In this document: piece by piece, positions 27,943-45,744 of the stretch
Layout: every line of letters starts with the position of its first letter
Numbering within the stretch: the stretch's first letter is position 1
From: Sunxiuqinia indica
GTDB lineage: Bacteria; Bacteroidota; Bacteroidia; Bacteroidales; Prolixibacteraceae
Assembly: GCF_009847015.1 (NCBI RefSeq)
Contig: NZ_WVEM01000003.1
Location: forward strand, 1-64,000
Direction: 5' to 3'
DNA length: 64,000 nt
Program-made: the position numbers and the translations under genes
The notes under the pieces: model-generated
Database searches by the model: none
What the model saw: the letters and a program-made list of their open reading frames with translations, nothing else
What the model was told of the DNA's origin: nothing

Positions 27943-29871
27943 TCATATTTTTTTGACATTATCTTCACCAAACCATTCTAATGCTTTTTCGATGACCACC
28001 TCTGACGGATTGTAATAGAATACAGCCAAATTCTCTTTCGCTCTAGTACAACACACATAGAAAATTTTTTGAGAGCGTTCCAAAACGCTTTCAGAACCTT
28101 CTCCTGTAAAGAGATTCTCAAAATTATAATTTCGCCATCCACCGTTATCAAGAATCATCAACACATTATTAAACTCTGTACCTTTCGTTTTGTGTTGTGT
28201 TGAAAACGGAGTTTTTCCCTCTAGGTAGTCATACAATTTTTGAAATTCAGAAAAAGGAACGGATTTTACTCTATCATACACATATTGCTTTTCGCTTATA
28301 AAACGCTCCAATCTCTCATCAACTAAACAGATTCCTTTTTCATTTGCCTCGCTGATTATTGTTTCAATTGTCTTATCTCCAACATCAATTAATTCTTCTA
28401 TATTTTTTTTGAGATTTCTTTTATCCTCTAATGACTTTACATTAGTTCTATAATCTGTGACTCTCAAAAACTCGTTGAATTGCTTATTTTGGTATAAATA
28501 GATGTTTCTTTGAATTTTGTATAAATGCTTAATCAAATCATCCCGCTTTGACCCCTTTTTATTTTCGTCTTCTTCATCTTGTTTTTTATCATCTAACAAT
28601 TGGTCTTTGTCCACATAAACCCTCGAAAATAACGAATAGTTATAATTTAAAGCCGCGTTATATAATTCAGGATTTTCATCGATAAAAGTCTGCATTGTTC
28701 TTGTAGGTAATACAGCATTTAATGCCCTTCCTGATTTTCCTTGCTTTAGCACCTCAATAACTTCACCGAAAGTCATCTCTGAGAAATCCAAATCAATATT
28801 ATTGTCTTTTATATAACTTTTCACTCTTTGCCGGTACTCAAGAATCTTATCTTTATCATAGATATCCATAAGAATCCTAAAGCCTGCTTTATCTGCAATT
28901 AGGTTGTGAGTGAGATTTAATTCCTTTGTTTCTTTGGAATTGTTAAAATTCCATCCTTCTTTCTCTGTCAGATAAATCTTAATATTTTCAATACTGTCGT
29001 TATCTGAATACAGGAATAAAACATTCCCCTCTTTTACCTCACTATTGAACATGTTTGGAGCAAATTTATCGTCCGACGGTGTTTGCTTTATTCCGTCAGT
29101 TCTTAACTTGTTTGCCAAATCAATTACACGCTGCGGATTTCTTCTGTTTTGTTCCTTCTTGACCTCTCTTACTTCTCCGTCTTCGTTACCTTTGTACGCA
29201 TTTAAATTTCCAATTCCATCGTCATAAATAGACTGCATCGCATCTCCAAAAAAACCAATAATACTTCTCTTCATACTTTGAGCAAAGTGAGTTAAAAAAG
29301 ACTCAATAACCACCTTATTGGTATCCTGATATTCATCGATAAGTATAAATCGGTACTTATCTTTAATAATATCACTCAATTTGGGATAATGCTCAAACAT
29401 ATACTCCGCAACAAGTAGAAGTTCGTCATGAGAGATAATCCCCTCTCTTATTCTTACATATTCTTTGTATTGAATCTTGTTTTCAAGGTTATTAAAATAA
29501 TCATCTGTAACTATTTCTAAATCGTCAATTTTTATTCTGGCAATTGCTTCATCATTAGCAAGGGCAATAATTGTTGCTTTTAACTCTTTCTGAAAGTGTT
29601 TTATATTGTCCCAGAGAAAATCATGAATTGTTGAGACATTTAAATTATTGTGGTTTACACGTTCTTCAATTTCTTTAACTGCTGCATTTGTATATGTCAT
29701 GCAGGCAACTTTTGAAGTTGGATTTTCTTCTATGACTTGTTTAATAACCTGAACCAAAGAATAGGTTTTTCCACTTCCAGCACCACCACTCAACAGAAAG
29801 TTTTGTCCGTTGTCGATATGCTTAAATATTTCTTGAACTTCTGGCTCTAATGCTAATCTTCCTTCAACCAT
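27943..29871 (-). CDS. UvrD-like helicase, GajB-type partner of a Gabija-like defence pair
   Basis: This 642-aa superfamily 1A helicase has Walker A GGAGSGKTY (residues 29-37), motif Ia CMTYTNAAVKEIEERV, motif II LIDEYQDT (177-184), motif III GDAMQSIYD, motif V STQHKTKGTEFNNVL and motif VI FYVCCTRAKENL. It overlaps the OLD-type nuclease gene by 19 nt and is read after it, the gajA-gajB order. In Gabija, GajB senses DNA ends and triggers the GajA nuclease. It is longer than the canonical GajB (about 490 aa), mainly in the insert at residues 270-540. It may therefore be a distinct OLD/UvrD subtype. Confidence 0.85.
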   Translation of the reverse strand: MVEGRLALEPEVQEIFKHIDNGQNFLLSGGAGSGKTYSLVQVIKQVIEENPTSKVACMTYTNAAVKEIEERVNHNNLNVSTIHDFLWDNIKHFQKELKATIIALANDEAIARIKIDDLEIVTDDYFNNLENKIQYKEYVRIREGIISHDELLLVAEYMFEHYPKLSDIIKDKYRFILIDEYQDTNKVVIESFLTHFAQSMKRSIIGFFGDAMQSIYDDGIGNLNAYKGNEDGEVREVKKEQNRRNPQRVIDLANKLRTDGIKQTPSDDKFAPNMFNSEVKEGNVLFLYSDNDSIENIKIYLTEKEGWNFNNSKETKELNLTHNLIADKAGFRILMDIYDKDKILEYRQRVKSYIKDNNIDLDFSEMTFGEVIEVLKQGKSGRALNAVLPTRTMQTFIDENPELYNAALNYNYSLFSRVYVDKDQLLDDKKQDEEDENKKGSKRDDLIKHLYKIQRNIYLYQNKQFNEFLRVTDYRTNVKSLEDKRNLKKNIEELIDVGDKTIETIISEANEKGICLVDERLERFISEKQYVYDRVKSVPFSEFQKLYDYLEGKTPFSTQHKTKGTEFNNVLMILDNGGWRNYNFENLFTGEGSESVLERSQKIFYVCCTRAKENLAVFYYNPSEVVIEKALEWFGEDNVKKI

Positions 29872-31934
29872 AATAATCCTTCTTTAATATATTCAGGTAT
29901 CTGCCAATTACTAAAATCTGCGTTACTAAAAAACAAAATATCTAAGGCAAAATGAGTTTTCTTTTTGATACAACTATTTGCTAGTGCATAAGCGTTTTTT
30001 GCTGGATCATCAAAATATTCTCTATTTTTTAGTCCCTTGAAACTATCTTTATTTATTATGATAAAATCTCTATTCAGATGGATAAATGAATCCTCAAAGC
30101 TTCTCGCATTATAACCGTTCTCATTAGTTTGATAAACAACTAATAGGGTTCCCTCGGGATCATTTGTCCAAGTTCCATCACCTTTTTTGAGTAATTTGCT
30201 ATTGAGATCAGATCCTTTTAGATCATCTAACGTTTTATTATTAAAAAAGAATGAAAGAGCAGTATTTGAAAAACTGACTCCATTTTGAACCTCACATTTC
30301 TCACCATCAGCATCAACAGCGTCTAAATCGGTTATTATTAGCGATTTTATGCCTAAAAACTCTATAAATTTCTCAAATATTTGAGAATAAGCCCCAACTT
30401 CAATAATTGAAATATTTTGTGATAATAAGGGCAAGAATGGATCAATCTCCCTAGATGCGTGATGCCTTTGTTTCTCTTCAATATCGATCTTTTTCATCAT
30501 TGTGGGAAGAAGTATTCTCTCAGTATCTCCCTCAATTAGAACAGCTTTATCAGCAAAGAAAATTTCAGCTCTGCTTATCGTTAAGTATTGTTTTAAAAAT
30601 TGATATTGGTTGGGGGCTTCTTCATATTCAAGGCTTAGTTCTCTTAAGTTTTTTGCAATGACATTGTTCAGGCTTATCTTTTTCAGATATTTAATATCAT
30701 CAAATTCACTATCAGCGACTATATGTGAAGAATGAGTACTAATGATATATTGTAATTTTCTATTTTGGCCATCTTCTCTTACGATTCCATCCTTAAGTAA
30801 GCTTTTGATATTCTTAATAAATATATATTGCATTTGAGGATGAGTGTGCGCTTCCGGTTCTTCTATAAACAACAAATTAATATCTGATGGCTTCTTGTTT
30901 TTATCTCCCTTGAATTCCTGTCGCTTAATTTCAATTTCGAAGATCATACTGATTAGGTTCATATACCCCAACCCGTTGCAGTATTCAGGTAGTTGATTAT
31001 CAGTGTCGTGTCTATATATAACCGTAGTGTTACCTTTTAATAATTCCCGATGCTGAAGTGAGGAAATAATTTTTATTTCAGATTCATTGGGTTTAATGCC
31101 ACCGAAAAGTTCGACCTTGTTTACGATGTCTTCAAAAAGATTTGTGTAAATATTACTCAAATTATCATCTGTATCAATTAATTGATCCTTGAAGGCTTCT
31201 ATAGCTTTTGATTGCTCATCATTTTCTTCTGTTCTTTCATAAATTTGAGAAGTTTGACCGGATAGCGTTTTATCTGCTTCTTTATTCGTTACGTCCCTCC
31301 TTGCACTTATATATTTAAAAGAAATAATGTCTTTGACACTAATCTTTTCATCATCTAAATCGACATATACATCTTCATTTGCTAGATTTTCTGCTCTATT
31401 ATATTCGTATGAGTATCTTCTAGGCTTGAAAAAACTTAAATGCCGCTCAATAAAATCATATATGCTTTTTACTTTATAACTTTCATCTTCGGCTTTTTTT
31501 TGTGCTTCCTTTTCATTGAATGCAATTAACTCGCTTTTCATTCGCTCATAATTTGCAAAATGGAGGGCAAATTCAAATCCAAGAACAACAACATTGTTTT
31601 CAGGATCCAAATCCATCATTACGCGACTGATATTGGATAAGTCATCATCTTCGCCATATTTGATAAAAATCTTCAATTTTATTGACTTTGGTTTGTATTC
31701 TTCTTCTTCGATTAAACCAGCTTCCAAAAGGTCTTTAATTTCTTTTTTAAATTCGATGTTAAAATCATCAAATTTGAAGCTACTGGGAGAATTCAAAAGC
31801 TTTTCTAATACCAACAATAGAGATGTTTTTCCTGTGTTATTTTTTCCAATAACTAGAGATAGTTCTTCTTCAATATCAATTGAGAAATCTTTTAAGAGTC
31901 TATAATTCTCGACCTGAATTTTGAATATTTTCAT
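29853..31934 (-). CDS. OLD-type ATP-dependent nuclease (ABC ATPase plus TOPRIM), GajA-like
   Basis: This 693-aa protein has an N-terminal ABC ATPase with Walker A GKNNTGKTS (30-38), Walker B/signature region LLFIEEPEAHTHPQM (354-368) and H-loop IISTHSSH (397-404). The C-terminal TOPRIM domain has VLIEGDTE (465-472, catalytic Glu 468) and IITDLDAVD (533-541, Asp 536 and 538). This is the class 2 OLD layout, defined by pairing with a UvrD-like helicase, and the partner gene overlaps by 19 nt. Gabija uses such a pair against phages. It lies at the left end of the ICE and so serves as defence cargo. No nearby restriction genes suggest another role. Confidence 0.87.
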   Translation of the reverse strand: MKIFKIQVENYRLLKDFSIDIEEELSLVIGKNNTGKTSLLLVLEKLLNSPSSFKFDDFNIEFKKEIKDLLEAGLIEEEEYKPKSIKLKIFIKYGEDDDLSNISRVMMDLDPENNVVVLGFEFALHFANYERMKSELIAFNEKEAQKKAEDESYKVKSIYDFIERHLSFFKPRRYSYEYNRAENLANEDVYVDLDDEKISVKDIISFKYISARRDVTNKEADKTLSGQTSQIYERTEENDEQSKAIEAFKDQLIDTDDNLSNIYTNLFEDIVNKVELFGGIKPNESEIKIISSLQHRELLKGNTTVIYRHDTDNQLPEYCNGLGYMNLISMIFEIEIKRQEFKGDKNKKPSDINLLFIEEPEAHTHPQMQYIFIKNIKSLLKDGIVREDGQNRKLQYIISTHSSHIVADSEFDDIKYLKKISLNNVIAKNLRELSLEYEEAPNQYQFLKQYLTISRAEIFFADKAVLIEGDTERILLPTMMKKIDIEEKQRHHASREIDPFLPLLSQNISIIEVGAYSQIFEKFIEFLGIKSLIITDLDAVDADGEKCEVQNGVSFSNTALSFFFNNKTLDDLKGSDLNSKLLKKGDGTWTNDPEGTLLVVYQTNENGYNARSFEDSFIHLNRDFIIINKDSFKGLKNREYFDDPAKNAYALANSCIKKKTHFALDILFFSNADFSNWQIPEYIKEGLLWLKED

Positions 31935-32148: not shown

Positions 32149-32508
32149 TCAGAACTTGATCTGATCTTCAACCTCTTTGATCTTTTCATCCAGGGTGGTT
32201 TTAATCTCGTCCATCACGGCTGAGACAACCGGTGTATTGGAGGTTTTAAACTCTTTGCCGGAAGCGTCCCGCAGGAATACGGTTGCACCCATCCCATCAG
32301 CGCCCAACGAAAAGGTCTGAAGGTTACGGCGGGTTTCGGTCAGCTTGCGCCACTTTTCAATGAGCATGCTCAAATCTTCCACTTTCTGGATGCGTTTTTC
32401 CAGCGAGGGAACTTCAATGACCACTTTTTCATCCTTCTTTACTACTTCCAAAGAAGCTTTAGGTTGTTCTTTACTCTCAGCTTCAACTTTTTTAGCTGTA
32501 TTATTCAT
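32149..32508 (-). CDS. small conserved ICE protein, function unknown
   Basis: The protein has 119 aa, is charged, and has no signal or membrane segment. Residues 35-65 and the C-terminal 30 residues (VMDEIKTTLDEKIKEVEDQI) look like coiled coil. The middle (FSLGADGMGATVFLRDASGK) is likely a beta hairpin. I recognise it only as a type of small hypothetical carried by Bacteroidota conjugative elements. It is a single-gene unit, with a 250-nt structured leader before it and its own terminator after it. Confidence 0.75.
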   Translation of the reverse strand: MNNTAKKVEAESKEQPKASLEVVKKDEKVVIEVPSLEKRIQKVEDLSMLIEKWRKLTETRRNLQTFSLGADGMGATVFLRDASGKEFKTSNTPVVSAVMDEIKTTLDEKIKEVEDQIKF

Positions 32509-32760
32509 GATTTTTCACCACTGCCCTGTGGCTTTTTTATGGCATCTGGCACGCCGGTTAAAATTTCGGCTAACCGGATATTGAGCTACGCGGATTCTTG
32601 TCAAGGGTGAATGTCTGGTTCCGGGATACCGGAAGCTGACCGAACACGGAGTGCGGCGAAGCGAAAGGAATAATGAAGGGCCGCCCTTGACTTTTCCGTG
32701 GGGCGATCAATAACTTTGCGGGGATTTTAAATGGAGTGGTTTTACCTTTCAAAATGCTGA
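32509..32760 (-). promoter_or_regulatory. structured 5' leader, copy B of a repeated leader family
   Basis: This 252-nt stretch directly before the ATG at 32508 has no reading frame of note and is more GC-rich than the flanking DNA. It shares ordered blocks with the leader before the ArdC gene (34476-34760). Read on the minus strand these are CAAAGTTATT, a CCGGAA region, TTGAC, AATCCG, AGCTCAAT, AACCGGCGTGCCAGAT, GATGCCA and CAGGGCAG just before the start codon. Short inverted pairs such as GGTTAGCC/CCGGTTA-type stems lie between the blocks. Conservation in order with variable spacers suggests a folded RNA leader. Confidence 0.65.
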
Positions 32761-32768
32761 TACGAACA

Positions 32769-32791
32769 AAAAAGGGGCTTTATCTGCCCCT
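32769..32791 (-). terminator. terminator of the methylase-like gene
   Basis: AGGGGC (32773-32778) pairs with GCCCCT (32786-32791), with a 7-nt loop and a T-run on the minus strand. The stem includes the first base of the TAG stop codon of the methylase-like gene, so it ends transcription right at the gene end. Confidence 0.82.
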
Positions 32792-33497
32792 AGAATTCAA
32801 ATAACAACTGCTGAGGTATTCCGGTTACTGGTTGCTGTTTGGAAAAGATTTCCGGCTTCTTTTCCGGTAGTTTCAAAACCATATAACTTTCGGTTTCTGA
32901 TATTTCCCTGATATATGGGACACCATGCTCCGGGTGAAGTTCAATTCGCCATCCGGCATAAAAACGGTTCATCAGTGTATCCATCCAGCAAACTTCGCCT
33001 AAAAGCCCATTCAGGCAAAGGTTAATCACACACATCATGGCGCAAGTGCGGTCAATATCTGCCCCAAAGAACAACAAATTCCTGCTGATTTTTGCTGCGG
33101 CTAATAACATTCGACCAGAACCACAACAACAGTCGGCCACCCGCTCCCGATAACCTGCAGGGTTTAGTATCCTTGCCATCATCTCGCATATTGGTTCTGG
33201 GGTAAAGAATTGTCCGTTATGCCCGTGACTGAGATATTCCATGTAAAAGTCGCCAAACCCATCTTTCAACCCTTCACCATTGTTGTCCATCTCTACGACT
33301 AATGCGCCAAATGCTTCCGCCATCAGGCAGGCATCTGGTTTTTCATAGCTTCGGACAATCTCATGATAGCGGTCTTCTTTTGCCCCTAACGACAAGGAGC
33401 AAACTACCATTTCGAGGAAATCTTCAAACACTGAATGCAAACCGTATTTATAACCGATTTGCAGGATATACTGGGAGAAACTTTTTAACTGTTCCAT
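32790..33497 (-). CDS. N-6 DNA methylase-like protein lacking the catalytic motif
   Basis: This 235-aa protein resembles the core of type I (HsdM-like) adenine methyltransferases. It has the GQFFTPEPICEMMARIL entry motif (residues about 95-111), the SAM-binding ADCCCGSGRMLLAAA motif and an acidic FFGADIDRT. The catalytic (N/D)PP(Y/F) motif expected 50-70 residues later is missing. CWMDTLMNRFYAGWR continues instead into a short tail. It is therefore probably not an active methylase but may still bind SAM or DNA. It lies between the ArdC gene and a small ICE gene. Only 57 bp separates it from the ArdC stop, so it may depend on readthrough. Confidence 0.8.
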   Translation of the reverse strand: MEQLKSFSQYILQIGYKYGLHSVFEDFLEMVVCSLSLGAKEDRYHEIVRSYEKPDACLMAEAFGALVVEMDNNGEGLKDGFGDFYMEYLSHGHNGQFFTPEPICEMMARILNPAGYRERVADCCCGSGRMLLAAAKISRNLLFFGADIDRTCAMMCVINLCLNGLLGEVCWMDTLMNRFYAGWRIELHPEHGVPYIREISETESYMVLKLPEKKPEIFSKQQPVTGIPQQLLFEF

Positions 33498-33540
33498 TTT
33501 CTGAATTTTTAAATCATGATTAACAGTGAATTTTGGAGAT

Positions 33541-33569
33541 AAAAAAAGCGAAGGCTAAATTGCCTCCGC
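33541..33569 (-). terminator. terminator of the ArdC-like gene
   Basis: GCGAAGGC (33548-33555) pairs with GCCTCCGC (33562-33569) with one mismatch and a 6-nt loop. Seven T follow on the minus strand. The stem overlaps the gene's TAG stop. Confidence 0.78.
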
Positions 33570-34475
33570 CAACTGATCAACCTGCATGGCTACTGCCGGT
33601 TGGTTAGGATAGGATTGATGTTCCAGGATGTAATCCACCGCCTTTTGTGCCTGTGATGAAGCCATGAGCAGCATCTTTTTATCTTCTTTGAATTTGCCAA
33701 TCCAGCTTTTAATGTAGGCGGCACTGTTATCAATCGTGGCATTCTGGATGCCTGTCATGTAACACAGGTAAGCTGCTCCCATTTCAGCCACCAACTCCTC
33801 TTGACTATAACTATAATCATGAGAACCAAATTTGTGATCGGGCAGTTTTTCATGCCTGCCTGTTCTGTTAATATGGCCTGTTGAATGAACCAATTCGTGA
33901 AAAATCGTTGAGTAATATTGTTCATCCTGAAAAAAGGTTCGTGGATTGGGCATCCCGATATAATCCCCTGAAGGTGAATAAAAGGCATGGGACTGGTTTA
34001 ACCTGATTTCAGGGCTATCGTACCAGAACTCGATCAACTGTTCAGCCTGGCCAATCGGATCAAAATCATGGTCGTGAGCTTCGGTCGACGGAATTTTGCT
34101 TTCATTGATCCCTTCGGTTTGTTTCAGGTTGAAAACGGTGTAATATCTAAGAAACGGGAAATGGTCGATACTACCGTCTTTTTCTTCTTTGTCCAATATT
34201 TTCCAAAATACAACCGGAAAACCTTTTTCTCCTTTCAGGATATGGCCACCCAATTCTTTAACCTGATTAAACGTGAGAAAGAACGGAGAACCGAATTTAT
34301 CAGCCACGGCTAGCAGGAACCAGAAGTTAAAACCACGGTAAACTTTCCGGTAAACCATGTTCTGCGGTAAACCTGTTTCGACTTTCCAGGGCATCTGCCA
34401 CGGAACAACACCTTTTTCAAGTCGTTCGAGAATCAGGTTGGTAACCATCTCGTAAATGTCGAATGAAGAATTCAT
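33555..34475 (-). CDS. ArdC-family antirestriction protein (ssDNA-binding domain plus zincin-like peptidase)
   Basis: The protein has 306 aa. The N-terminal domain (about 1-125) matches the ArdC ssDNA-binding domain: LERLEKGVVPWQMPW, YRGFNFWFLLA, GEKGFPVVFWK. The C-terminal metallopeptidase-like domain has FHELVHSTGH (His-Glu-x-x-His zinc site) followed by EELVAEMGAAYLCY. ArdC proteins shield incoming single-stranded conjugative DNA from restriction in the recipient. It is a single-gene unit: a structured leader (copy A) lies before it and a terminator overlaps its stop. Confidence 0.92.
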   Translation of the reverse strand: MNSSFDIYEMVTNLILERLEKGVVPWQMPWKVETGLPQNMVYRKVYRGFNFWFLLAVADKFGSPFFLTFNQVKELGGHILKGEKGFPVVFWKILDKEEKDGSIDHFPFLRYYTVFNLKQTEGINESKIPSTEAHDHDFDPIGQAEQLIEFWYDSPEIRLNQSHAFYSPSGDYIGMPNPRTFFQDEQYYSTIFHELVHSTGHINRTGRHEKLPDHKFGSHDYSYSQEELVAEMGAAYLCYMTGIQNATIDNSAAYIKSWIGKFKEDKKMLLMASSQAQKAVDYILEHQSYPNQPAVAMQVDQLAEAI

Positions 34476-34760
34476 GGGAAAGCGCTGCTGCCCTGCAGAC
34501 TTATTTTGGCATCCTTTGAAGTATAAAGGACTGATCTGGCACGCCGTTAAACTTAAATTTTTGGCGTACCAACATTGAGCTGTCCCGGATTAGGTCAACG
34601 GGGTGCATGTCAGTTTTTTGCTAACCTGTTCGTTCACAGAGTTAGCATGTTCATTTAAAATGAACAAAGCAAAAAACTGAACGCATCCGAAGGGAACGAG
34701 CCACGAAAAGCGAGTTCCCCTTTACCGTTCCGGGAAGCATAAATAACTTTGACGGAAATT
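34476..34760 (-). promoter_or_regulatory. structured 5' leader, copy A of a repeated leader family
   Basis: This 285-nt leader of the ArdC-like gene shares a series of ordered sequence blocks with copy B at 32509-32760. CAAAGTTATT, TTGAC, AATCCGGG, AGCTCAAT, AACGGCGTGCCAGAT, GATGCCAA and CAGGGCAG are separated by unlike spacers. Copy A carries an extra arm (34611-34679) that copy B lacks. The two leaders precede different proteins, so the likeness is not a result of gene duplication. Antirestriction genes need expression on entry to a new cell, so a leader that acts from single-stranded DNA or RNA folding is possible. Confidence 0.65.
34611..34679. repeat. palindromic three-arm structure inside leader A
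   Basis: CAGTTTTTTGCT (34611-34622) is exactly complementary to AGCAAAAAACTG (34668-34679). Inside lie two further hairpins, GCTAAC/GTTAGC (34620-34625 and 34641-34646) and TGTTCATTT/AAATGAACA (34648-34656 and 34658-34666). The outer stem and first inner stem share three bases, so alternative folds compete. Confidence 0.8.
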
Positions 34761-34874
34761 TGAGTTGAAAAGTGTTACTAAAAATGAAATCGAGTTTTAC
34801 AAAAAACAGATCTGTTCAAATCCTATCATATTTGCCAGAGAACTTCCTATATTTATGATTAAAATAAAAACAGA

Positions 34875-37800
34875 ATGAAACTGAGAAAGCTAGGCAAGAA
34901 TGAACTAAGCTATATCTTTAAGATCCTAAAAATCAAAGAAGAAGACAAACAGCTCATTTTAAATTACTTCTTTTTAGCAGGAAGTTGCGAATCTGATGAA
35001 TATACATTTAAACAACATTTTCATAAGGATAATTTGCAAGCAGATGAGCTAGATAAGATTAGCCCTAACATTATCAATAAAATACGATACTTTGCAATAA
35101 CAAAACCAGACGAGAACCTAGAATTGTTATCTCCAAATCTTTATCAAAAATTTTCGGAGCCTGACAATATTGTGTTTTTCGTTGGTGCCGGATTATCAAG
35201 GCTATTGGATTATCCAAGTTGGGAGGAGTTAGCTGATAGAGCTATAAAGGAATTACGAGATAAGAGGATAATTAATTATTACATAGAAGACAGAATCAGG
35301 AATACAATAAAAGATCCATTACAAAAGCTCTCCATCTTTGAATCGTATTTCAAACATGATTCAAAAGAATTCAAGGAATTTTATTCTCAAATTTTCAAGA
35401 ACGAAAAATCAAATTGTCAAGATAATCCGTATGATCTATTAGTGTGTCGTGAGTTTAAAGCGGCTTTTATAACTACCAATATTGACACAGAAATACTTGA
35501 AGCCTTAAAAAGAAAAGATTTGGCTACAAATATTAGTGGACCCAATGACGTTAAGAATCTACCAAAACAACCGAAAAATTACAGAGTAAATCTTGATATA
35601 AATGAACTGAAAACAGGTAGTGTCGCAATGATACATGGCAAATATGACGAACCAGAAAGCATAGTAATGTCAAACTTTGATTATATCAATAGTTACTACC
35701 GCAAAGACAATGACAAAATAAGTCAATTCCTTAAAAATGTATTCAAGCAAAAGACCGTTATTTTCATTGGGTATGGTCTGGCAGAACTTCCTATATTGGC
35801 GACCATAATTGATTCAAAAAAAATAACTCATTCTGAAAAGGAAAGTTCTGATAAAATCAAAAACCAAAAAAAACATTATTTACTTATAGAATCATATGAG
35901 AATGAAAAAAAACTTCAAGACGTTTATCGTACTTATTTCAATAATTTCAATATCGAAATATTGCCATATCATTTGGATGATGAAGGGTATGATCGAATTA
36001 CAAATGTGTTAAAATCATGGCGCAATTCACTTCGTTCTGAGAAAGAACAATTTATAAAAGATAGTTTTACGATAGAGCAGTTTTTTGAAACTGGTGCTAA
36101 TATAGAGCCAGTTATCAGGATAATCAAACCGCTTGAAAATATATTGTTATTTAATCAATTTTTTACCGAAATAGACAAAATCGATTATTTCTTTCGATTA
36201 CAAAAAGAAGGATTTTTTAATGTAGAAAAATTTCCCCCAGCCAATAATGACTCTCATCCTTTTTATCCTCCTTTGTTCTACATCGAAAAAATTGCGGCAA
36301 AATTAGGAAAAAGTGGAGATGCTCAAGATACGATATTGCATAGCATTTTAAGAATTATCTATGATGTATCAAAAAGCTTTGAATCCAGCAGTTTCAATGA
36401 TCTCAATAAAAATACAATTTGGTATTTTATTCGTATTATTAATCATCTGCCGAATGCGATATTGACCGAAAAATTTGTCAGTGAGGTGATAAATGTTTGG
36501 ATTTTGAATTTCTCAGCTTCCGATTCAAATATTGAAAGTATCTTAAATACTATTTTTATAAAGTTTTGTACCGTTGAAGATATTTCAAAGGCTGAAATGA
36601 TATTAAAATCATTTCTTTCAAAAATATACAAATCCAAAAATGAATTTATTGAAGATGAGCTGAACTTCAGATACTTGATAAAAGAGAACAAACATGTAAA
36701 AGTATTTCTTGAAAATAGTTCTACTGATTTTATTTTTTTCTTATCTGATCTTGTAAATTATTTGAGAGTAGAAAACTATCCCATCGAATTTAAATTTGAA
36801 GCTAAAAAAATAGAGTATCATTTCAAAGCTAAACTCGTAACCGATAAAACCTTCGAATATAAATTAACCGATATTACAAATGATGTTGTAATTGAGAAAG
36901 GAGACATAAATTTTTCTTATTATTCAGACGAAAATGCAATTAAGAGAAAAATCATTTCGTTGATAGGAAACTATTACATAGGTGATGATTCAATTGTTAA
37001 CTTATACTATTTTTCTCATTGGGGAAAGCAAAGCTTTCGGTTAAGTGATGATATTTTTGACGATAGTATACATTACAGAAAAGATTTTGTTATAGTCTTA
37101 AGCCAATTCTTAAAACGAATTTTACTTGAACAAGCGAAAAGTAAGCCCGAAAATATAAGTACGATTGTTCGTAGTTATTTTGATCGAGAATATTCCATCC
37201 CCTTTTTCAAACAACTCTCGTTACCTATTATTGAAGTAAACTTTAGCTATTTCTCCGAATTCTTTTTAAATACCGTTTTAGATGAAAATCTATGGATTAA
37301 CAATTTGAATTTTGGATTAGAGAAAAGCCTAAAGAATTTTTTGAGAAGAAATACGAAAAAGCTTCATAAAAGGCATTTTGACAAAATCAATTTGATTATT
37401 CAAAACATCGAGAAGAAATATAAAACAGAAGATGAAGATTTCAAGAGAAAAATTGATTTTGATAAATTGGAATGGCTTGATGCCCTCAAAGAAAGCCCAT
37501 CATTCAAAACTGAATATGACATATTGAATTCTAATTATCGTTTGGAACCAGATTATTTTTCTTCGATGGGGAAAATTAAATACTATTCAGGCGAAGTCTC
37601 GCCTTATAATGTAGAAGAACTTCTATCATTTAACGTTTCAGAATTATATTCCGTAATAACAAGCTTCAAACAAATAGACCATTTTGACTTTAAAAATGGT
37701 TCAATCAGGGGATTGGCAAGTTCAGTACGTAAAATTGCAGAATTAAGCCCGTCTAAAATGATAGAGTTACTGGAATATAATTATTTAGTCCCTATTCCTT

Positions 37801-39167
37801 ATATGAATGGAATAATAGAAGGGATTATAAAAGTAATGAAAAAAGACGAACGAGAACTGAACCTGAAAAGGCTTTTTGAAATCATTCTAATTTATATTAA
37901 ATCGTCCGAGTTTCGTACTGATAAGTTAATGATTAAAGAATACTACGATGATTTTCAAAAAGAATGGCTAATTACTGAAATAGCCCAATTAATAGAAGAA
38001 CACCTAAAAAATCAAACACAAGAAACTGATAGTGAAGAAATTATTCGCCTAATTCTTTTAGATATTTCGAAATATTTAAATGATTTAAAAGGAGATACAT
38101 ATTCAGAGAAAGATGGGAAACAATTTCGGGACTATAACCTAAATTATACATTAAACTCTTCAAAAGGTAAAGTTTTATTGTCGTTATTTGAATTTGCATG
38201 GTACATTAGTACTACCTCAAAATCACAATCCATTGACCCAACAGTTAAACAAATATTTATCCAGGCTTTTGCTAGTAAACATAGAGATGCTTTTATCATT
38301 TTTGGAACATATCTCTCCCAATTTATATCCATTGACAAAGAGTTTAGTGATGAATGGATAAAGAAAATTCTGAAGTTGGAGGATGAAGAATGGAAATGTT
38401 TTTTTGGAGGATGGTTATTTTTCAAAATGCAGCATTGTTCTAGGGAAATATACAATAAACTAAAAACTCATTTCAGAAGAGCCTTAGATTTGAAGTTTTA
38501 CATAGAAGATTTTCAAAATAGTGGATTAATACGTTCAATACTCATTGCATATTATTGGAATTATGAAGGAGTCAGAGGAAGGATATTTCAAAAGATGCTC
38601 AGAGAAGCAAATATAGAAATCCTTGGAATAATTTTGGGATATGTTTGCACTGATTTCTACGAATTTGAAGAGCATAACATGTTAGATTCAACCCGGCCTA
38701 AAATCTTGGCTCTTTGGAAAGATTTAAAAGTTAAAAGTGAGTCTTTTACGGAGGAAGGAATAGAAAAAATTCGTTTCGAGATGTTTGAGTTGATCCGGTA
38801 CTGGGAAAAAATTAATCAGGAGCTATTTGAACTTCTTTTGTATTCCATTGACAATTTTAAACCAGGGAAACCTGTTAAAGGCTTGGTTGAAGAGCTTAAG
38901 AGATTATTGGATACAGCAAAGGAAACGAATGCGGTGTATGTTTCGCAGTTGATACTAAAACTTACAGAAAGAAAATATTGCCCGTTTTCTGAGGGAGAAT
39001 TTGGAGGTGAAATTTATGATACGCTTGAAAACTTAGCTTTAATGCAAAACAATCAAATAATTCAAGACACGAAAGATTCTTGTACGAACCTTATTAAAAA
39101 CAGTAATGGCTTACAAAAGAGAGGCAGAGAGATTTTGAGGAAAATGAATGACAACTTACAAAATTAG
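34875..39167 (+). CDS. very large SIR2-domain protein, probable NAD-consuming defence effector
   Basis: The protein has 1430 aa. The SIR2 domain is at about residues 95-330: NAD-binding FFVGAGLSR (101-109), FITTNIDTEIL (198-208) with Asn 202 and Asp 204, IHGKYDEP with His 254, and VIFIGYGLAE (295-304). A helical segment of about 90 aa precedes it. The remaining 1100 residues are Lys/Glu/Ile/Leu-rich with no motif I recognise and no P-loop. Known defence sirtuins (DSR1, DSR2, ThsA, SIR2-pAgo) deplete NAD on infection. This one fits the SIR2-plus-large-helical-sensor plan but is longer than DSR2 (about 1000 aa). It is a lone plus-strand AT-rich gene among minus-strand cargo, about 400 bp from the ArdC start. 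Confidence 0.85.
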   Translation: MKLRKLGKNELSYIFKILKIKEEDKQLILNYFFLAGSCESDEYTFKQHFHKDNLQADELDKISPNIINKIRYFAITKPDENLELLSPNLYQKFSEPDNIVFFVGAGLSRLLDYPSWEELADRAIKELRDKRIINYYIEDRIRNTIKDPLQKLSIFESYFKHDSKEFKEFYSQIFKNEKSNCQDNPYDLLVCREFKAAFITTNIDTEILEALKRKDLATNISGPNDVKNLPKQPKNYRVNLDINELKTGSVAMIHGKYDEPESIVMSNFDYINSYYRKDNDKISQFLKNVFKQKTVIFIGYGLAELPILATIIDSKKITHSEKESSDKIKNQKKHYLLIESYENEKKLQDVYRTYFNNFNIEILPYHLDDEGYDRITNVLKSWRNSLRSEKEQFIKDSFTIEQFFETGANIEPVIRIIKPLENILLFNQFFTEIDKIDYFFRLQKEGFFNVEKFPPANNDSHPFYPPLFYIEKIAAKLGKSGDAQDTILHSILRIIYDVSKSFESSSFNDLNKNTIWYFIRIINHLPNAILTEKFVSEVINVWILNFSASDSNIESILNTIFIKFCTVEDISKAEMILKSFLSKIYKSKNEFIEDELNFRYLIKENKHVKVFLENSSTDFIFFLSDLVNYLRVENYPIEFKFEAKKIEYHFKAKLVTDKTFEYKLTDITNDVVIEKGDINFSYYSDENAIKRKIISLIGNYYIGDDSIVNLYYFSHWGKQSFRLSDDIFDDSIHYRKDFVIVLSQFLKRILLEQAKSKPENISTIVRSYFDREYSIPFFKQLSLPIIEVNFSYFSEFFLNTVLDENLWINNLNFGLEKSLKNFLRRNTKKLHKRHFDKINLIIQNIEKKYKTEDEDFKRKIDFDKLEWLDALKESPSFKTEYDILNSNYRLEPDYFSSMGKIKYYSGEVSPYNVEELLSFNVSELYSVITSFKQIDHFDFKNGSIRGLASSVRKIAELSPSKMIELLEYNYLVPIPYMNGIIEGIIKVMKKDERELNLKRLFEIILIYIKSSEFRTDKLMIKEYYDDFQKEWLITEIAQLIEEHLKNQTQETDSEEIIRLILLDISKYLNDLKGDTYSEKDGKQFRDYNLNYTLNSSKGKVLLSLFEFAWYISTTSKSQSIDPTVKQIFIQAFASKHRDAFIIFGTYLSQFISIDKEFSDEWIKKILKLEDEEWKCFFGGWLFFKMQHCSREIYNKLKTHFRRALDLKFYIEDFQNSGLIRSILIAYYWNYEGVRGRIFQKMLREANIEILGIILGYVCTDFYEFEEHNMLDSTRPKILALWKDLKVKSESFTEEGIEKIRFEMFELIRYWEKINQELFELLLYSIDNFKPGKPVKGLVEELKRLLDTAKETNAVYVSQLILKLTERKYCPFSEGEFGGEIYDTLENLALMQNNQIIQDTKDSCTNLIKNSNGLQKRGREILRKMNDNLQN

Positions 39168-39247: not shown

Positions 39248-39703
39248 TTACCCTTTACGAGGCTGCAAAAATTCTGATATTGTCTTACATATATCGACAT
39301 TTGATACATATCGATAAATTTGAGGAGGATGAAAGCTTGAATCAATGGTTCGTAGATTATCCAAAGTTACTGGACTAAGTTTCTTTATACCCTCAATATC
39401 GATTCCTATAGCCTTTTCTTTTCCCTTGTAATAATTATCATACCTAAGTTTATCTATACCCAGAGAGTCAGAAAATTCGTTCCACATTTTTTCCGGAGTA
39501 GTTTCGATAATTTGTCTTATTACTCCGAATCCCACAACTGACTTTATTGGAGAGGATGCGTAAATGATTATGTAGTCCCCAACTTTTACATGTGGTTTTA
39601 TCTTTCGTAGTTCAATACTTTTTTCTTTTGTAAGAATCTTCTCTGCAAACTCAGGTTTAACCGAAATAAACAGGTATTTTTTTATAGAATTTAATTTCCC
39701 CAC
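39248..39703 (-). CDS. ASCH-domain protein
   Basis: This 151-aa protein opens with YLFISVKPEFAEKILTKEKS, followed by IELRKIKPHVKVGDYIIIYAS and VVGFGVI. This is the ASCH fold (related to PUA), thought to bind RNA or modified nucleotides. Its start overlaps the end of the GNAT-PIN gene by 13 nt, so the two are translated together. It converges with the SIR2 gene, with 80 bp between stops. The C-terminal 45 residues are not part of the core fold. Confidence 0.85.
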   Translation of the reverse strand: MGKLNSIKKYLFISVKPEFAEKILTKEKSIELRKIKPHVKVGDYIIIYASSPIKSVVGFGVIRQIIETTPEKMWNEFSDSLGIDKLRYDNYYKGKEKAIGIDIEGIKKLSPVTLDNLRTIDSSFHPPQIYRYVSNVDICKTISEFLQPRKG

Positions 39704-41763
39704 CTTCCTATCTGATATATCTGATTAAAAATAATCTTGTCCACTTTTACTGGTGATGCAAAGGTATTCTCTTTTCTTCCATTACTGACAAATATTTGCC
39801 TGATTAAAGACAATTTTATTGGATTGTGAAATACCTCAGTTCCACTAAATCGCAATGCTTTAATGGGAACATTAATATCATTGCTACACAATTCGTAAAT
39901 ATTTTTCCACTCATAGATTCCGTAATGCTTATTTTTTTGAAACAAAACTTTAGGCTTATCCGTCATTACTTCATCCAAATAGGATGATGCCACAATTGAA
40001 CTGCTTCTTGCAAAATGTTTGTTACTACTAGCATACCACAATATGCGGGCAGGGCTGACTTCATTAATCGGTCTTACATGCCGGTAATATACGTTTTCCA
40101 TATTCCATAATTTCTCAGGATTAGCGCCAAACAAAGTAACTCCTGAAATATTTGGATCAAAAAGTTGACCAGCCCAGTATGGTTTGATAGGTACTATATA
40201 ACATGGTATATCCAAATCTAAAAGTTTTAGTGGAAATAAACGGCGTTCCAGTTTTAATAGGATTTTTTGTTTTTCATCACTACTCACCAGGTCCGTAATT
40301 TCTTCCGCCAAATTGCTTTCCCAAATATCTCCTATAAAATCCGTAAGTTGATAGCTTTCAATCATTTTGCCAATTACTGCTTTGATCCAACCAGTTGATT
40401 GTCGATTGAATCCCATTCGTTGAAGAACAGACTGCTGACTTTCAGATAAAAAGCTTTCTTGGATTTGTATTGAAGTTAGGCCTTTGCTTATAGCTTTATT
40501 AATAAAATCGGATACAAGCTGCATAAACAGAGTCTGTTTTTGGTCTGTCTCCGACAAACGAATAAATGAAATAACCAATTCTGTGCCTTCAGATTTGTAT
40601 GCAAAGAATGCGATGGCTTTACCTTCAGATTTTATTACCTTAATTTTTGAAAGATTGATTTTTGAAGCCTCTCCGTAAACGATATTTTTAAACGAAATCT
40701 TTCTTTCCGATTCTGATTTAGAAAGAAACTGGTCAATATAAATATCCAGTTCTGATTTTGATACATTAGATATTGAATGAAAGGTAACACCGGCAAGTCT
40801 TACCGGCGAATATTCTTCTTTATTAACCAACTGGTCTATCTCAATAATAAATTCATGAGGGCAAAATACCTGAATCCTAAAATTATTCTCAATCTCTTCT
40901 CTTTTTTCTAATATTCCCTGATCTAATGTCACGAAATATGGGATTTCTGCAACAATGGATGTTGCTAATTGCTTTCGGTCCGATCTATCATTCTCTGTAT
41001 TGCCTGGGATAAATGATTCTAATAGGTTCGATACATCTTTGTATTTCTCAATATCGAAACGGGCAACTAAAAAATTTTGCAAAAAGGCCCTGGTTCTTTC
41101 CGCTCGCTTATAGTTTTTATCTCTTGTAATCTCATTTAACAACTCCGGGGCATAAAAATAATCTACTTCTTCAACCAGCCAGTCTGCCATCAAGGATCGC
41201 GGGTCTTGAGACGGTTCAAATTCAATGTCATTATCCCTTAACTTCAGAATTATATTTGCATCTAATAATGCTTTGACTTTTAACGTAGTACTGTTTCCTA
41301 CACCACTAAATAGATCGGGTTTATTGAAATCATACCACCATTTATAAAGATAATTTTCATCAATACTTCGACTCCGCACTTGTCCCTTGCACACAAAGCC
41401 ATACCTTTTCCATAATTCTGTCGCATGGAAATAATCAGCCCTGCAACTTAGAGAAATTCCCATATATGTTGCTTCATATTTACGTCTTAGTTCATCAAGC
41501 AGTTTTGTTGGTACACCATGCCCTCGACTTTCCTCTGTGACACAAAGATGGACAATGGAGATCCTGGAATAACGTACGACAAGTCGGAACATCAGGTATC
41601 CGATTAACTCAGTGCCACTATGGGCAACAATTATACATTTTTTTCGGGCATGGTCGATAAAGCCGCCATCAGGCATAAATCCCAGTGTTTGAGAATGTTT
41701 CTTCCCCAGTGCTATGACATCCTGAAAAAAACGATGATGCTGATTTATGTGTTCTATCTCCAT
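39691..41763 (-). CDS. GNAT acetyltransferase - PIN nuclease-like fusion protein
   Basis: The protein has 690 aa with at least three parts. Residues 1-150 are a GNAT domain with the CoA motif region VTEESRGHGVPTKLLDELR (about 75-93). Residues 163-312 look like a PIN nuclease: LLDANIILKL with Asp 168, LLNEITRD with Glu 211, DRSDRKQLATSI with Asp 259/262, and FVTLDQGIL with Asp 281, the expected acidic set. Residues 320-490 resemble a second, degenerate GNAT domain (SIQIQESFLSESQQSVLQRM then GFNRQSTGW). The last 200 aa are unassigned. The ASCH gene overlaps its 3' end. A tRNA- or RNA-directed conflict role is inferred from the domain set and cargo location. No experiment on this arrangement is known to me. 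Confidence 0.8.
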   Translation of the reverse strand: MEIEHINQHHRFFQDVIALGKKHSQTLGFMPDGGFIDHARKKCIIVAHSGTELIGYLMFRLVVRYSRISIVHLCVTEESRGHGVPTKLLDELRRKYEATYMGISLSCRADYFHATELWKRYGFVCKGQVRSRSIDENYLYKWWYDFNKPDLFSGVGNSTTLKVKALLDANIILKLRDNDIEFEPSQDPRSLMADWLVEEVDYFYAPELLNEITRDKNYKRAERTRAFLQNFLVARFDIEKYKDVSNLLESFIPGNTENDRSDRKQLATSIVAEIPYFVTLDQGILEKREEIENNFRIQVFCPHEFIIEIDQLVNKEEYSPVRLAGVTFHSISNVSKSELDIYIDQFLSKSESERKISFKNIVYGEASKINLSKIKVIKSEGKAIAFFAYKSEGTELVISFIRLSETDQKQTLFMQLVSDFINKAISKGLTSIQIQESFLSESQQSVLQRMGFNRQSTGWIKAVIGKMIESYQLTDFIGDIWESNLAEEITDLVSSDEKQKILLKLERRLFPLKLLDLDIPCYIVPIKPYWAGQLFDPNISGVTLFGANPEKLWNMENVYYRHVRPINEVSPARILWYASSNKHFARSSSIVASSYLDEVMTDKPKVLFQKNKHYGIYEWKNIYELCSNDINVPIKALRFSGTEVFHNPIKLSLIRQIFVSNGRKENTFASPVKVDKIIFNQIYQIGRWGN

Positions 41764-44177: not shown

Positions 44178-45089
44178 TCAGTATCGATTTCTTTTTCCCT
44201 TTCCAGATTTTAGACTTTTTCGTTTATTTCGCCCGACATTTTGTTCGAAACGTTCATTCTTTAGTTGATAGAACAGCGATTTAAGCAATTCTTTTTTGAA
44301 ATCTCCTAAAAACCGAACCTTTTGTTTTTCATTCTGACCACAGTTCAATGTGTTGTCCAAACAAAACCTCGGCCTCTCATCAAAATCGCCCATCTTCACC
44401 GGATACCTCACCGGATTCCCATTCTCATCTGTCACAAACACCAAAAATCCACGCCCAACCTGTTTTACTTCAACATTAAACAACTTCAACGCCTGATCAT
44501 ACATCTCTTTGGAGGTTATAAACTCCATCCTGTTGAGTTGAGAAAATAAGCTTTCCAGGTTTTGTTTCAGGTTTTTACTGGAGCCTGAGAATCGATAGTT
44601 CAGTTTTTCCTGGGTATCATCTTTGGTTAGCTGGTATTTCTGCTCCAGTTCTTTGATAAACCGCTGCGACTTTTCTTTCTCATAACTGTCTTTGATCTTT
44701 TTACCGGTATCACAATCGATACGGGTAGATACAATATGAAAATGTACCCGTTCCAGATCCGCATGTTTATAAACCAGGTACGGCTGGTTCCCATAACCCA
44801 AGTGTTCCATCAAGTTACCGATCTCAGTTCTGATACCGGCATCGCCCAGACGGACTAAATCACTGACTGTTGGATTAACAGATATATGTAATCCGGGCTT
44901 TTTAACACGGGTATTCCGCTCTTCAATCTCCTGAAATACCCTATACCTATCATTTCTGTTCCCCAGAAAAGGATTCATTACAGGCATATTCTGGCTGTGA
45001 TAAAATGAGGCCCATTTCTTATCGATTTTTCGCTCGTTGTAAAACAAGGCGTTTTTTGTGCTGCAAGTCTGGTGGATTTTAATAATCAT
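44178..45089 (-). CDS. MobP-type relaxase (mobilisation nuclease)
   Basis: This 303-aa protein of the relaxase/mobilisation nuclease family has the three-His metal site in KHADLERVHFHIVSTRID (His 109, 116, 118), the LHISVNP block (His 68) and an N-terminal Tyr 17 in NALFYNERK, a likely nicking tyrosine. It would cut one strand at oriT and lead it into the recipient. It follows the relaxosome protein gene by 33 bp, and the probable oriT lies just before that gene. The C-terminus is short and basic. It corresponds to MobB of Bacteroides elements. Confidence 0.9.
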   Translation of the reverse strand: MIIKIHQTCSTKNALFYNERKIDKKWASFYHSQNMPVMNPFLGNRNDRYRVFQEIEERNTRVKKPGLHISVNPTVSDLVRLGDAGIRTEIGNLMEHLGYGNQPYLVYKHADLERVHFHIVSTRIDCDTGKKIKDSYEKEKSQRFIKELEQKYQLTKDDTQEKLNYRFSGSSKNLKQNLESLFSQLNRMEFITSKEMYDQALKLFNVEVKQVGRGFLVFVTDENGNPVRYPVKMGDFDERPRFCLDNTLNCGQNEKQKVRFLGDFKKELLKSLFYQLKNERFEQNVGRNKRKSLKSGKGKRNRY

Positions 45090-45518: not shown

Positions 45519-45520
45519 GG

Positions 45521-45631
45521 GTTCAAAGAGGGGGATTATTCAGTTTTCGGGGAATGGGCGTTTGCCCCGCAGGGCAAGGTGAAAAGGTTTTTGTGCATAC
45601 AAAAACACAACTTGCAGCCCCCTCTTTGAAC
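45521..45631. other. probable origin of transfer (oriT)
   Basis: Three nested inverted repeats lie directly upstream of the relaxosome gene. The outer pair is GTTCAAAGAGGGGG (45521-45534) with CCCCCTCTTTGAAC (45618-45631), 14 bp and perfect. Inside are a TTGCCC/GGGCAA hairpin (45562-45577) and a TTTTTGT/ACAAAAA hairpin (45588-45605). Inverted repeats next to mobA-type genes mark oriT in Bacteroides elements. The nick site itself is not assigned. Confidence 0.65.
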
Positions 45632-45744
45632 TAAGTTTTCCTCTCTGATTTCCTCTTCTTTTCTTCGATCAAAATGGATAAAAAAGAAAGGGAAACCTGC
45701 TATTCAGTATTTCCCCTTCAGGATTGGAAACGAGACTAACTAAA

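Follow-up and report, generated by a model that had tools for sequence, protein, structure and literature searches.

A putative fold-back promoter joined to a start-codon RNA in leaders of Bacteroidota mobile elements

We analyzed two leaders in a 64,000-nucleotide (nt) stretch of the Sunxiuqinia indica genome (contig NZ_WVEM01000003.1, positions 1 to 64,000; hereafter the window). They belong to a conjugative element and occupy its minus strand, as do its annotated transfer genes, one leader standing before a gene for a 119-residue (aa) protein and the other before a gene for an ArdC-like anti-restriction protein. The leader is probably, although with considerable room for doubt, a composite expression cassette of Bacteroidota mobile elements, with a fold-back promoter upstream and a structured RNA at the start codon downstream. 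Repeated copies, a promoter consensus at a set spacing, the complementarity of two arms with a fixed end, covariation in the RNA and a near-constant distance to the ATG were all established computationally. Our best reading, which we infer from these features, is a Bacteroidota single-stranded promoter resembling Frpo, fused to a new translation-leader RNA. A preliminary description of the span 32509-34760, which holds both leaders, an N6-methylase gene and the ArdC gene, had offered a folded RNA or a single-stranded promoter; signals of both kinds are present, but as separate modules rather than as an either/or.

The two leaders align as ordered blocks, which begin upstream of the arms, separated by spacers that vary. 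Their global alignment score of 157 lies above all 500 dinucleotide-preserving shuffles (mean 96.5, standard deviation 7.8, maximum 126), bearing out the block-wise kinship noted in the preliminary description. The proteins behind them are indeed unrelated, with ArdcN and MPTase-PolyVal domains in ArdC and no Pfam family above cut-off in the 119-aa protein. Within the same genome, the leader recurs on two further contigs, with five model matches overall. Along the gene strand, the order is a block of the CTCAAATTT type, the box CAAANNTA, the first arm, variable hairpins, the second arm (ending in CTCAAT or an equivalent), a short stretch and the start-codon RNA. Between the arms lie 76 nt in the 119-aa leader and 113 nt in the ArdC leader. 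The two window leaders are composed as follows.

32509-32760, minus strand: leader of the 119-aa gene (upstream limit of the unit redrawn to 32738)
32719-32738, minus strand: conserved block upstream of the -7 box, which may pair past the bubble (weaker evidence)
32711-32718, plus strand: -7 box TAACTTTG of a promoter directed away from the gene when the DNA is duplex
32684-32711, minus strand: first arm, holding the complement of the -33 element (GTCAAGGG, 32684-32691)
32608-32683, minus strand: variable inner hairpins between the arms
32580-32607, minus strand: second arm CCCTTGAC...CTCAAT, complement of the first arm
32510-32558, minus strand: start-codon RNA, two hairpins and a loop-loop helix (ATG at 32506-32508)
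32149-32508, minus strand: 119-aa gene
34476-34770, minus strand: leader of the ArdC gene (upstream limit of the unit redrawn to 34771)
34752-34771, minus strand: conserved upstream block (CTCAAATTT)
34744-34751, plus strand: away-facing -7 box TAACTTTG
34717-34744, minus strand: first arm, with the complement of the -33 region (GGTAAAGGGG, 34717-34726)
34604-34716, minus strand: variable inner hairpins
34574-34603, minus strand: second arm CCCCGTTGACC...CTCAAT
34477-34548, minus strand: start-codon RNA with an extra hairpin inserted in the first loop (ATG at 34473-34475)
33555-34475, minus strand: ArdC-like anti-restriction gene

Read on the opposite strand, the box CAAANNTA becomes TAnnTTTG, which in Bacteroidota is the -7 element recognized by the primary sigma factor (-7/-33 consensus described in part of PMC7366714). 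Together with its surroundings it forms the promoter signature TTG/TTA-N17-23-TAnnTTTG, facing away from the gene. Among 51 extracted copies, one with a wrong box (L035) was dropped, leaving 50 for the counts on the block, the arm alignment and the fold energies. The ten-base block CAAAGTTATT, located by a pattern allowing two substitutions anywhere, shows 3, 5, 0, 0, 8, 10, 0, 0, 0 and 2 substitutions per position in these copies, and 18 of the 28 hit the two 'nn' positions of TAnnTTTG when read on the other strand. Of the 122 distinct copies in the wider collection, 77 have CAAANNTA at 55-330 nt upstream. When its letters are rearranged in the 30 possible ways, the original included, the mean is 15.3 and the next best order reaches 30. 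For the following counts, a copy was called armed if it has the box and an arm helix that starts at index 5-9 and scores 18 or more, a definition by which pairing is partly selected; 65 copies qualified, and 64 were relocated for the later counts (L101 was lost). A TTG or TTA stands 17-23 nt from the box in 63 of the 64 (TTG alone in 19), compared to 2, 5, 8, 9 and 9 of 64 in five neighboring windows used as a control. In the region reaching from the ATG back to 200 nt beyond the box, a gene-directed promoter of equal looseness was found in 0 of the 64. After the arms and before the ATG, a gene-directed -7 box was likewise found in 0 of 65 armed copies, in a scan that accepted TTG or TTA for the away-facing promoter and only TTG for the gene-directed one; such boxes occur within 150 nt upstream in 3 of 64. 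An away-facing promoter that is complete, with no gene-directed promoter found, points to the fold-back reading.

Arm pairing recurs in each of three sets of copies. Aligned arms form 17 to 25 Watson-Crick pairs in each of the 50 near copies, and they also pair in viral contigs that were collected blind to the arms (24 boxes). For the second-round copies (32 boxes, some of them close relatives of the first set), the mean arm score is 21.7 with the own partner versus 14.6 with foreign partners. Such foreign-partner controls address the selection inherent in the armed set, but they contain related copies. Pairing is kept across 19 arm clusters (75% identity) among the 64 armed copies. Furthermore, the helix has a fixed end. 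The box is present in 99 copies, 88 of which have an arm helix with a score of at least 18, and 53 of these helices have the first T of the -7 box as their exact starting point (26/41, 15/28 and 12/19 in three sets), with the far end mostly near the -33 region. In second-round and viral copies taken together, this exact start is seen for 27 of 54 own partners versus 203 of 2840 foreign partners. In 42 of 54 cases a G faces the following box position, which therefore stays unpaired on the promoter strand. The first variable pair beside the box changes compensatorily (T-A 37, A-T 13, C-G 2, G-C 1) in armed copies, which had been selected for pairing. A plain minimum free energy (MFE) DNA fold of the plus strand of the 119-aa leader yields the fold-back arrangement with AACTTTG open (z -3.3). 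The upstream block can re-pair past the bubble, with a median of 18 for own versus 12 for foreign partners; this is the weaker part, since about 16% of foreign pairs reach the median of 18.

The E. coli-style numbering of promoter positions and the idea of a fork junction serve as background for the mechanism that we propose. In duplex DNA, the primary-sigma promoter would face away from the gene. If the template strand of the gene were single-stranded, its promoter part could fold onto the second arm, so that the -33 region and spacer become duplex and the first T of the -7 box forms the last pair. The remaining AnnTTTG would stay open, resembling the upstream fork of an open promoter complex, and host RNA polymerase would copy the folded single strand towards the gene. 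Transcription from single-stranded DNA and the step from fold to transcript are parts of this model, as is its presumed timing at transfer or replication. It makes an exact, testable prediction of promoter fork geometry.

The downstream module, which we call the start-codon RNA, is about 40 nt long and ends a few nt before the start codon. It consists of hairpin A (GGC/GCC), hairpin B and a loop-loop helix (GCC with GGC), and follows the gene-strand pattern GGCGWGCCAGAWGCC-AANNNAAR-N-hairpin(AGGGCA)-short spacer-ATG. Covariation was assessed in an alignment (A4) of 79 gap-free sequences from the 122 places; 32 with the loop outside +28 to +30 were set aside (some two dozen had an inserted hairpin, and the others a long linker, a repeat that was only partial, a wrongly placed anchor or a weak match), together with 3 duplicates and 8 of odd length or redundant. 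In this alignment 98.6% of cells are paired, 8 of 11 pairs show double changes, and the covariation score was matched by 0 of 500 shuffles; the collecting model included hairpin B but excluded hairpin A and the loop-loop helix. The loop-loop helix switches to ACC/GGT in 5 of 87 sequences. The first-drawn pairing, of the second GCC with the AGGGCA loop, was replaced because divergent copies covary otherwise: changes in the second GCC track those in the first GGC, and the GCC in the loop that these two enclose changes in step with the AGGGCA loop. Wobble pairs on the gene strand are more often G.U (15) than A.C (5), as expected of an RNA. An integron attC or attachment site, considered for the repeated position before genes, was set aside in view of the RNA's covariation, which includes G.U on the gene strand. 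The compensatory changes whose absence would have spoken against a common fold are thus abundant here, and the arms add pairing of their own. A conserved, covarying fold at the ribosome-binding region is of the kind seen in riboswitches or protein-binding translational leaders, and the start-codon RNA most likely acts as an mRNA structure in translation.

The start-codon RNA is also present without arms. A same-strand open reading frame (ORF) of at least 60 aa ends within 120 nt of 45 of 109 unarmed versus 12 of 63 armed copies, and the median gap to the preceding gene is 79 nt for unarmed versus 215 nt for armed copies, among those with an ORF within 400 nt; the unarmed set includes near copies that merely fail the strict arm test. 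Unarmed copies thus lie closer to the preceding gene, as operon-internal leaders would. Some genes have both arms and RNA in front of them and others the RNA alone, often soon after the preceding gene.

No Rfam family could be assigned to the leaders or start-codon RNAs searched, in keeping with the earlier remark that no named family fits. Among the 4227 families, none matched the window at gathering score and nothing was convincing at E up to 10; nine further loci with copies gave 3 gathering-score matches, none of them on a start-codon RNA by coordinates. Two matches to the Flavo-1 small RNA (RF01705) lie on the plus strand of one locus (L104, 5052-5137 and 8004-8089), near a cluster of eight start-codon RNAs.

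A search for further copies, as had been proposed, was productive in other Bacteroidota genomes and elements. The leader family comprises 122 distinct places in bacterial loci, including a few weak, possibly false ones (L070, L071, L101) and excluding two anchorless matches, and 58 places in viral contigs. Counting the S. indica genome itself, blastn gave matches in 15 of 100 genomes, and a model built on 43 sequences of the downstream part (R1) gave matches in 28 of 393 from the order; the alignment A2 took 43 of 51 copies, omitting mostly near-identical ones. Phylum-wide occurrence was not obtained: R1, run on 395 genomes, recovered S. indica itself plus two matches near 26 bits, and model R2 again recovered S. 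indica, with 19 matches at about 20-25 bits that were treated as noise, in searches that scored 9-15 candidates per genome and do not prove absence. Copies cluster on a single strand, with eight on one contig (G670) and up to nine on viral contigs (G869). A 25-base pattern covering the first half of the start-codon RNA found 51 stretches in 46 distinct viral records, which makes this RNA a sensitive sequence tag. The 58 viral places represent 51 distinct 60-mers; the loop is at +29 in 57 of 58, which the pattern did not ask for, and an ATG follows at +41 to +48 in all 58. One contig with a terminase gene (G879) has three start-codon RNAs, and no CAAANNTA was found at the one looked at. No PF03432 relaxase was detected in the 46 viral records, all of which may be fragments. 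Two loci, L038 and L055, share the flank ACTTGYGCAAC...GTGTCGCAC, upstream of the first arm, before different genes, as does L141; the L038/L055 flank differs from that of other copies and may mark a recombination boundary just outside the leader.

Since the fold-back model depends on which strand is transferred, we compared leader orientation with the relaxase and the candidate origin of transfer (oriT) of the element. The other transfer genes encode RteC, a TraG-type ATPase, TraM, a DUF4138 protein, a coupling protein and MobC.

44178-45089, minus strand: relaxase of the conjugative element, on the same strand as the leaders
45519-45744, minus strand: candidate oriT upstream of mobC, with an inverted repeat at 45587-45606 and an ambiguous nick strand

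The relaxase gene is usually in the part that enters last (PMC11541004, in part). By this rule, the transferred strand would be the gene's template, as the fold-back model needs. Comparisons were restricted to a PF03432 relaxase within 60 kilobases on the same contig, which left 12 elements among 39 genomes searched for both. The leader or start-codon RNA shares its strand with the relaxase in 11 of these 12, of which 4 (G000 C34, G024 C24, G015 C70, G627 C57) have it upstream of the relaxase. The candidate oriT contains nested inverted repeats that are conserved in six elements.

Several observations weigh against the fold-back reading. In 7 of the 12 elements, the copy is downstream of the relaxase, the late-entering side by the usual rule, and in 1 (G664 C41) it is on the opposite strand; most leader copies would then enter late. 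The nick consensus is YATCCTG. The oriT inverted repeat is flanked by a nick-like CAYCYTG on one strand and by CAWCTTG on the other, and with such motifs on both flanks the polarity of the oriT is ambiguous, and with it the transferred strand. Armed copies also occur in two tailed-phage contigs, one with tape-measure, terminase-like and primase genes (G870) and one with tape-measure and primase genes (G846), and for these genomes entry in single-stranded form is not expected. Their copies would call for single-stranded replication stages, for extrusion or for cassettes taken over from conjugative elements. Thus, the suggestion of the preliminary description that the leader is used at cell entry loses ground on both counts. 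At the level of the fold, 35 of the 88 arm helices begin elsewhere than at the first T of the box, and the MFE DNA fold of the ArdC leader (z -6.1) has a shorter outer helix that ends at GCT/AGC, with the last five arm bases before the box also unpaired. Wobble in the arms only leans to the template strand, at A.C 43 versus G.T 13 in the 50 near copies with an aligner that scored both alike, where by eye much of the A.C excess falls at one internal-loop position, and at 31 versus 19 under a stricter alignment. Fold energies show no strand preference, with the gene strand being more stable in 27 of 50 (RNA parameters) and 23 of 50 (DNA parameters). Finally, a further stem, GGTACGCC/GGCGTGCC, has RNA-like G.U wobble on the gene strand and would sit partly upstream of the expected transcript start.

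This stem, the wobble of the start-codon RNA, the ability of the arms to pair equally well in RNA and the beginning of homology upstream of the arms all agree with an explanation by RNA only, in which the whole 250-290 nt would be transcribed from an unseen upstream promoter and the arms and start-codon element would form one regulatory RNA. We consider this unlikely, although it deserves serious attention. It leaves unexplained a conserved unpaired CAAANNTA that varies mostly at nn and lies 17-23 nt from a paired TTG/TTA, and the promoter it requires has a gene-directed -7 box within 150 nt upstream in just 3 of 64 armed copies. The promoter might instead be an ordinary antisense promoter of duplex DNA, producing an antisense RNA or interfering with the preceding gene, with the second arm being incidental or a silencer. 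It is complete in the duplex orientation in 63 of 64 copies and could well also fire there; as a full explanation, this is improbable, since it has no need for a complementary second arm that ends at the first T of the box and leaves the genes themselves without a promoter. We give a similarly low weight to a hairpin extruded in supercoiled duplex phage or element DNA, or to a single-strand replication origin. Folds that prime the complementary strand are described for some single-stranded promoters and origins. The armed copies in two tailed-phage contigs and the stability of the fold as DNA are consistent with this, and Frpo is described as serving both transcription and primer synthesis (title of a reference in PMC11541004). 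However, the 76 and 113 nt between the arms would probably make a poor extrusion substrate, and the copies stand directly before genes with a start-codon RNA, which points to gene expression.

A broader extension of the fold-back reading is tentative, and we regard it as possible rather than probable. The cassette may be a strand-state switch, in which the promoter faces away from anti-defense genes in duplex DNA and flips when the folded template strand is single, while the previously undescribed start-codon RNA would mark early or establishment genes in conjugative elements and tailed phages of one order and provide a tag for new anti-defense genes. The 160 proteins behind the start-codon RNA fall into 37 single-linkage families, with many singletons and many small proteins of no known family. 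The 119-aa family is the commonest (40 proteins, 29 armed), followed by the ArdC (36, 18 armed), RadC-like (20, 5 armed), DUF6573 (17, 4 armed) and zinc-ribbon-like (7, none armed; Pfam match below cut-off) families. Ten looked-up family representatives include DnaJ-domain, SLOG, RecT and N6-methylase proteins. The predicted fold of the 119-aa protein is a helix-hairpin-helix of low confidence (predicted local distance difference test score 68.9). Genes behind the start-codon RNA are candidates for establishment or anti-defense functions. In the surroundings of the leaders, the window contains the following genes; the start-codon RNA model gave no match before the N6-methylase-like gene.

32790-33497, minus strand: N6-methylase-like gene between the ArdC gene and the 119-aa leader
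27943-31934, minus strand: Gabija pair GajA-GajB directly downstream of the 119-aa gene, probably cargo of the element
34875-39167, plus strand: 1430-aa SIR2-domain protein (sole PADLOC match Dsr1), immediately upstream of and divergent from the ArdC leader
39248-41763, minus strand: match to the candidate defense pair PDC-M11 by ASCH-domain-like and GNAT/PIN-domain proteins

Our search of the open literature found no report of a single-stranded promoter or such a leader in Bacteroidota, with subscription papers and preprints mostly outside its range, and no word beginning with 'bacteroid' occurs in the main text of PMC11541004 as far as covered. The leader resembles EGeRS1 of Bacillus pLS20-family plasmids in that several similar structured leaders precede ardC and other establishment genes (PMC8708921, in part). 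EGeRS1 elements are 400-600 bp long, and in the same parts of that paper, the authors identified no promoter in the fold, reported the transferred strand to be the non-template strand and deemed a single-stranded promoter highly unlikely. In contrast, the Bacteroidota leader has a complete promoter inside its fold and is not a promoterless structure of that kind. The start-codon RNA resembles DUF805b RNA (Rfam RF02914), a small structure with GCC in a hairpin loop and AGGCA downstream, a likeness that is read from the consensus and has no such pairing in the Rfam structure line. The sequences differ, and the DUF805b model matched no start-codon RNA in a stretch of one viral contig (L184 3400-6700) at E up to 5; a DUF805b RNA (38.6 bits, 3504-3537, minus strand) lies in that stretch shortly downstream of a 119-aa-family gene. 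Coliphage N4 also derives promoters from the fold of one strand in a duplex-DNA phage. The N4 hairpins are short and read by the virion polymerase, whereas the leader has a stem of about 30 positions and a host-type sigma signature.

The closest likeness is to Frpo/ssi of F and ColIb-P9, judged for homology by the 119-aa leader against PLSDB rather than from Frpo sequences or the ArdC leader; this blastn search of 72,556 plasmids gave one chance-like 28-nt match (E 0.2) and none that was significant. In both systems, a structured region is repeated before establishment and anti-restriction genes, in multiple copies per element, and the fold of one strand rebuilds the promoter boxes in a stem (PMC9849209 and PMC11541004, each in part). 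Unlike Frpo/ssi as described in those parts, the leader has a Bacteroidota -33/-7 signature whose -7 box lies open at a fixed fork, and it is joined to a start-codon RNA. It is also present in phage contigs and frequently lies on the side that enters late. One property of Frpo/ssi, a fold that rebuilds a promoter of the host primary sigma factor towards the gene, is present in the sequence and predicted fold of the Bacteroidota leader.

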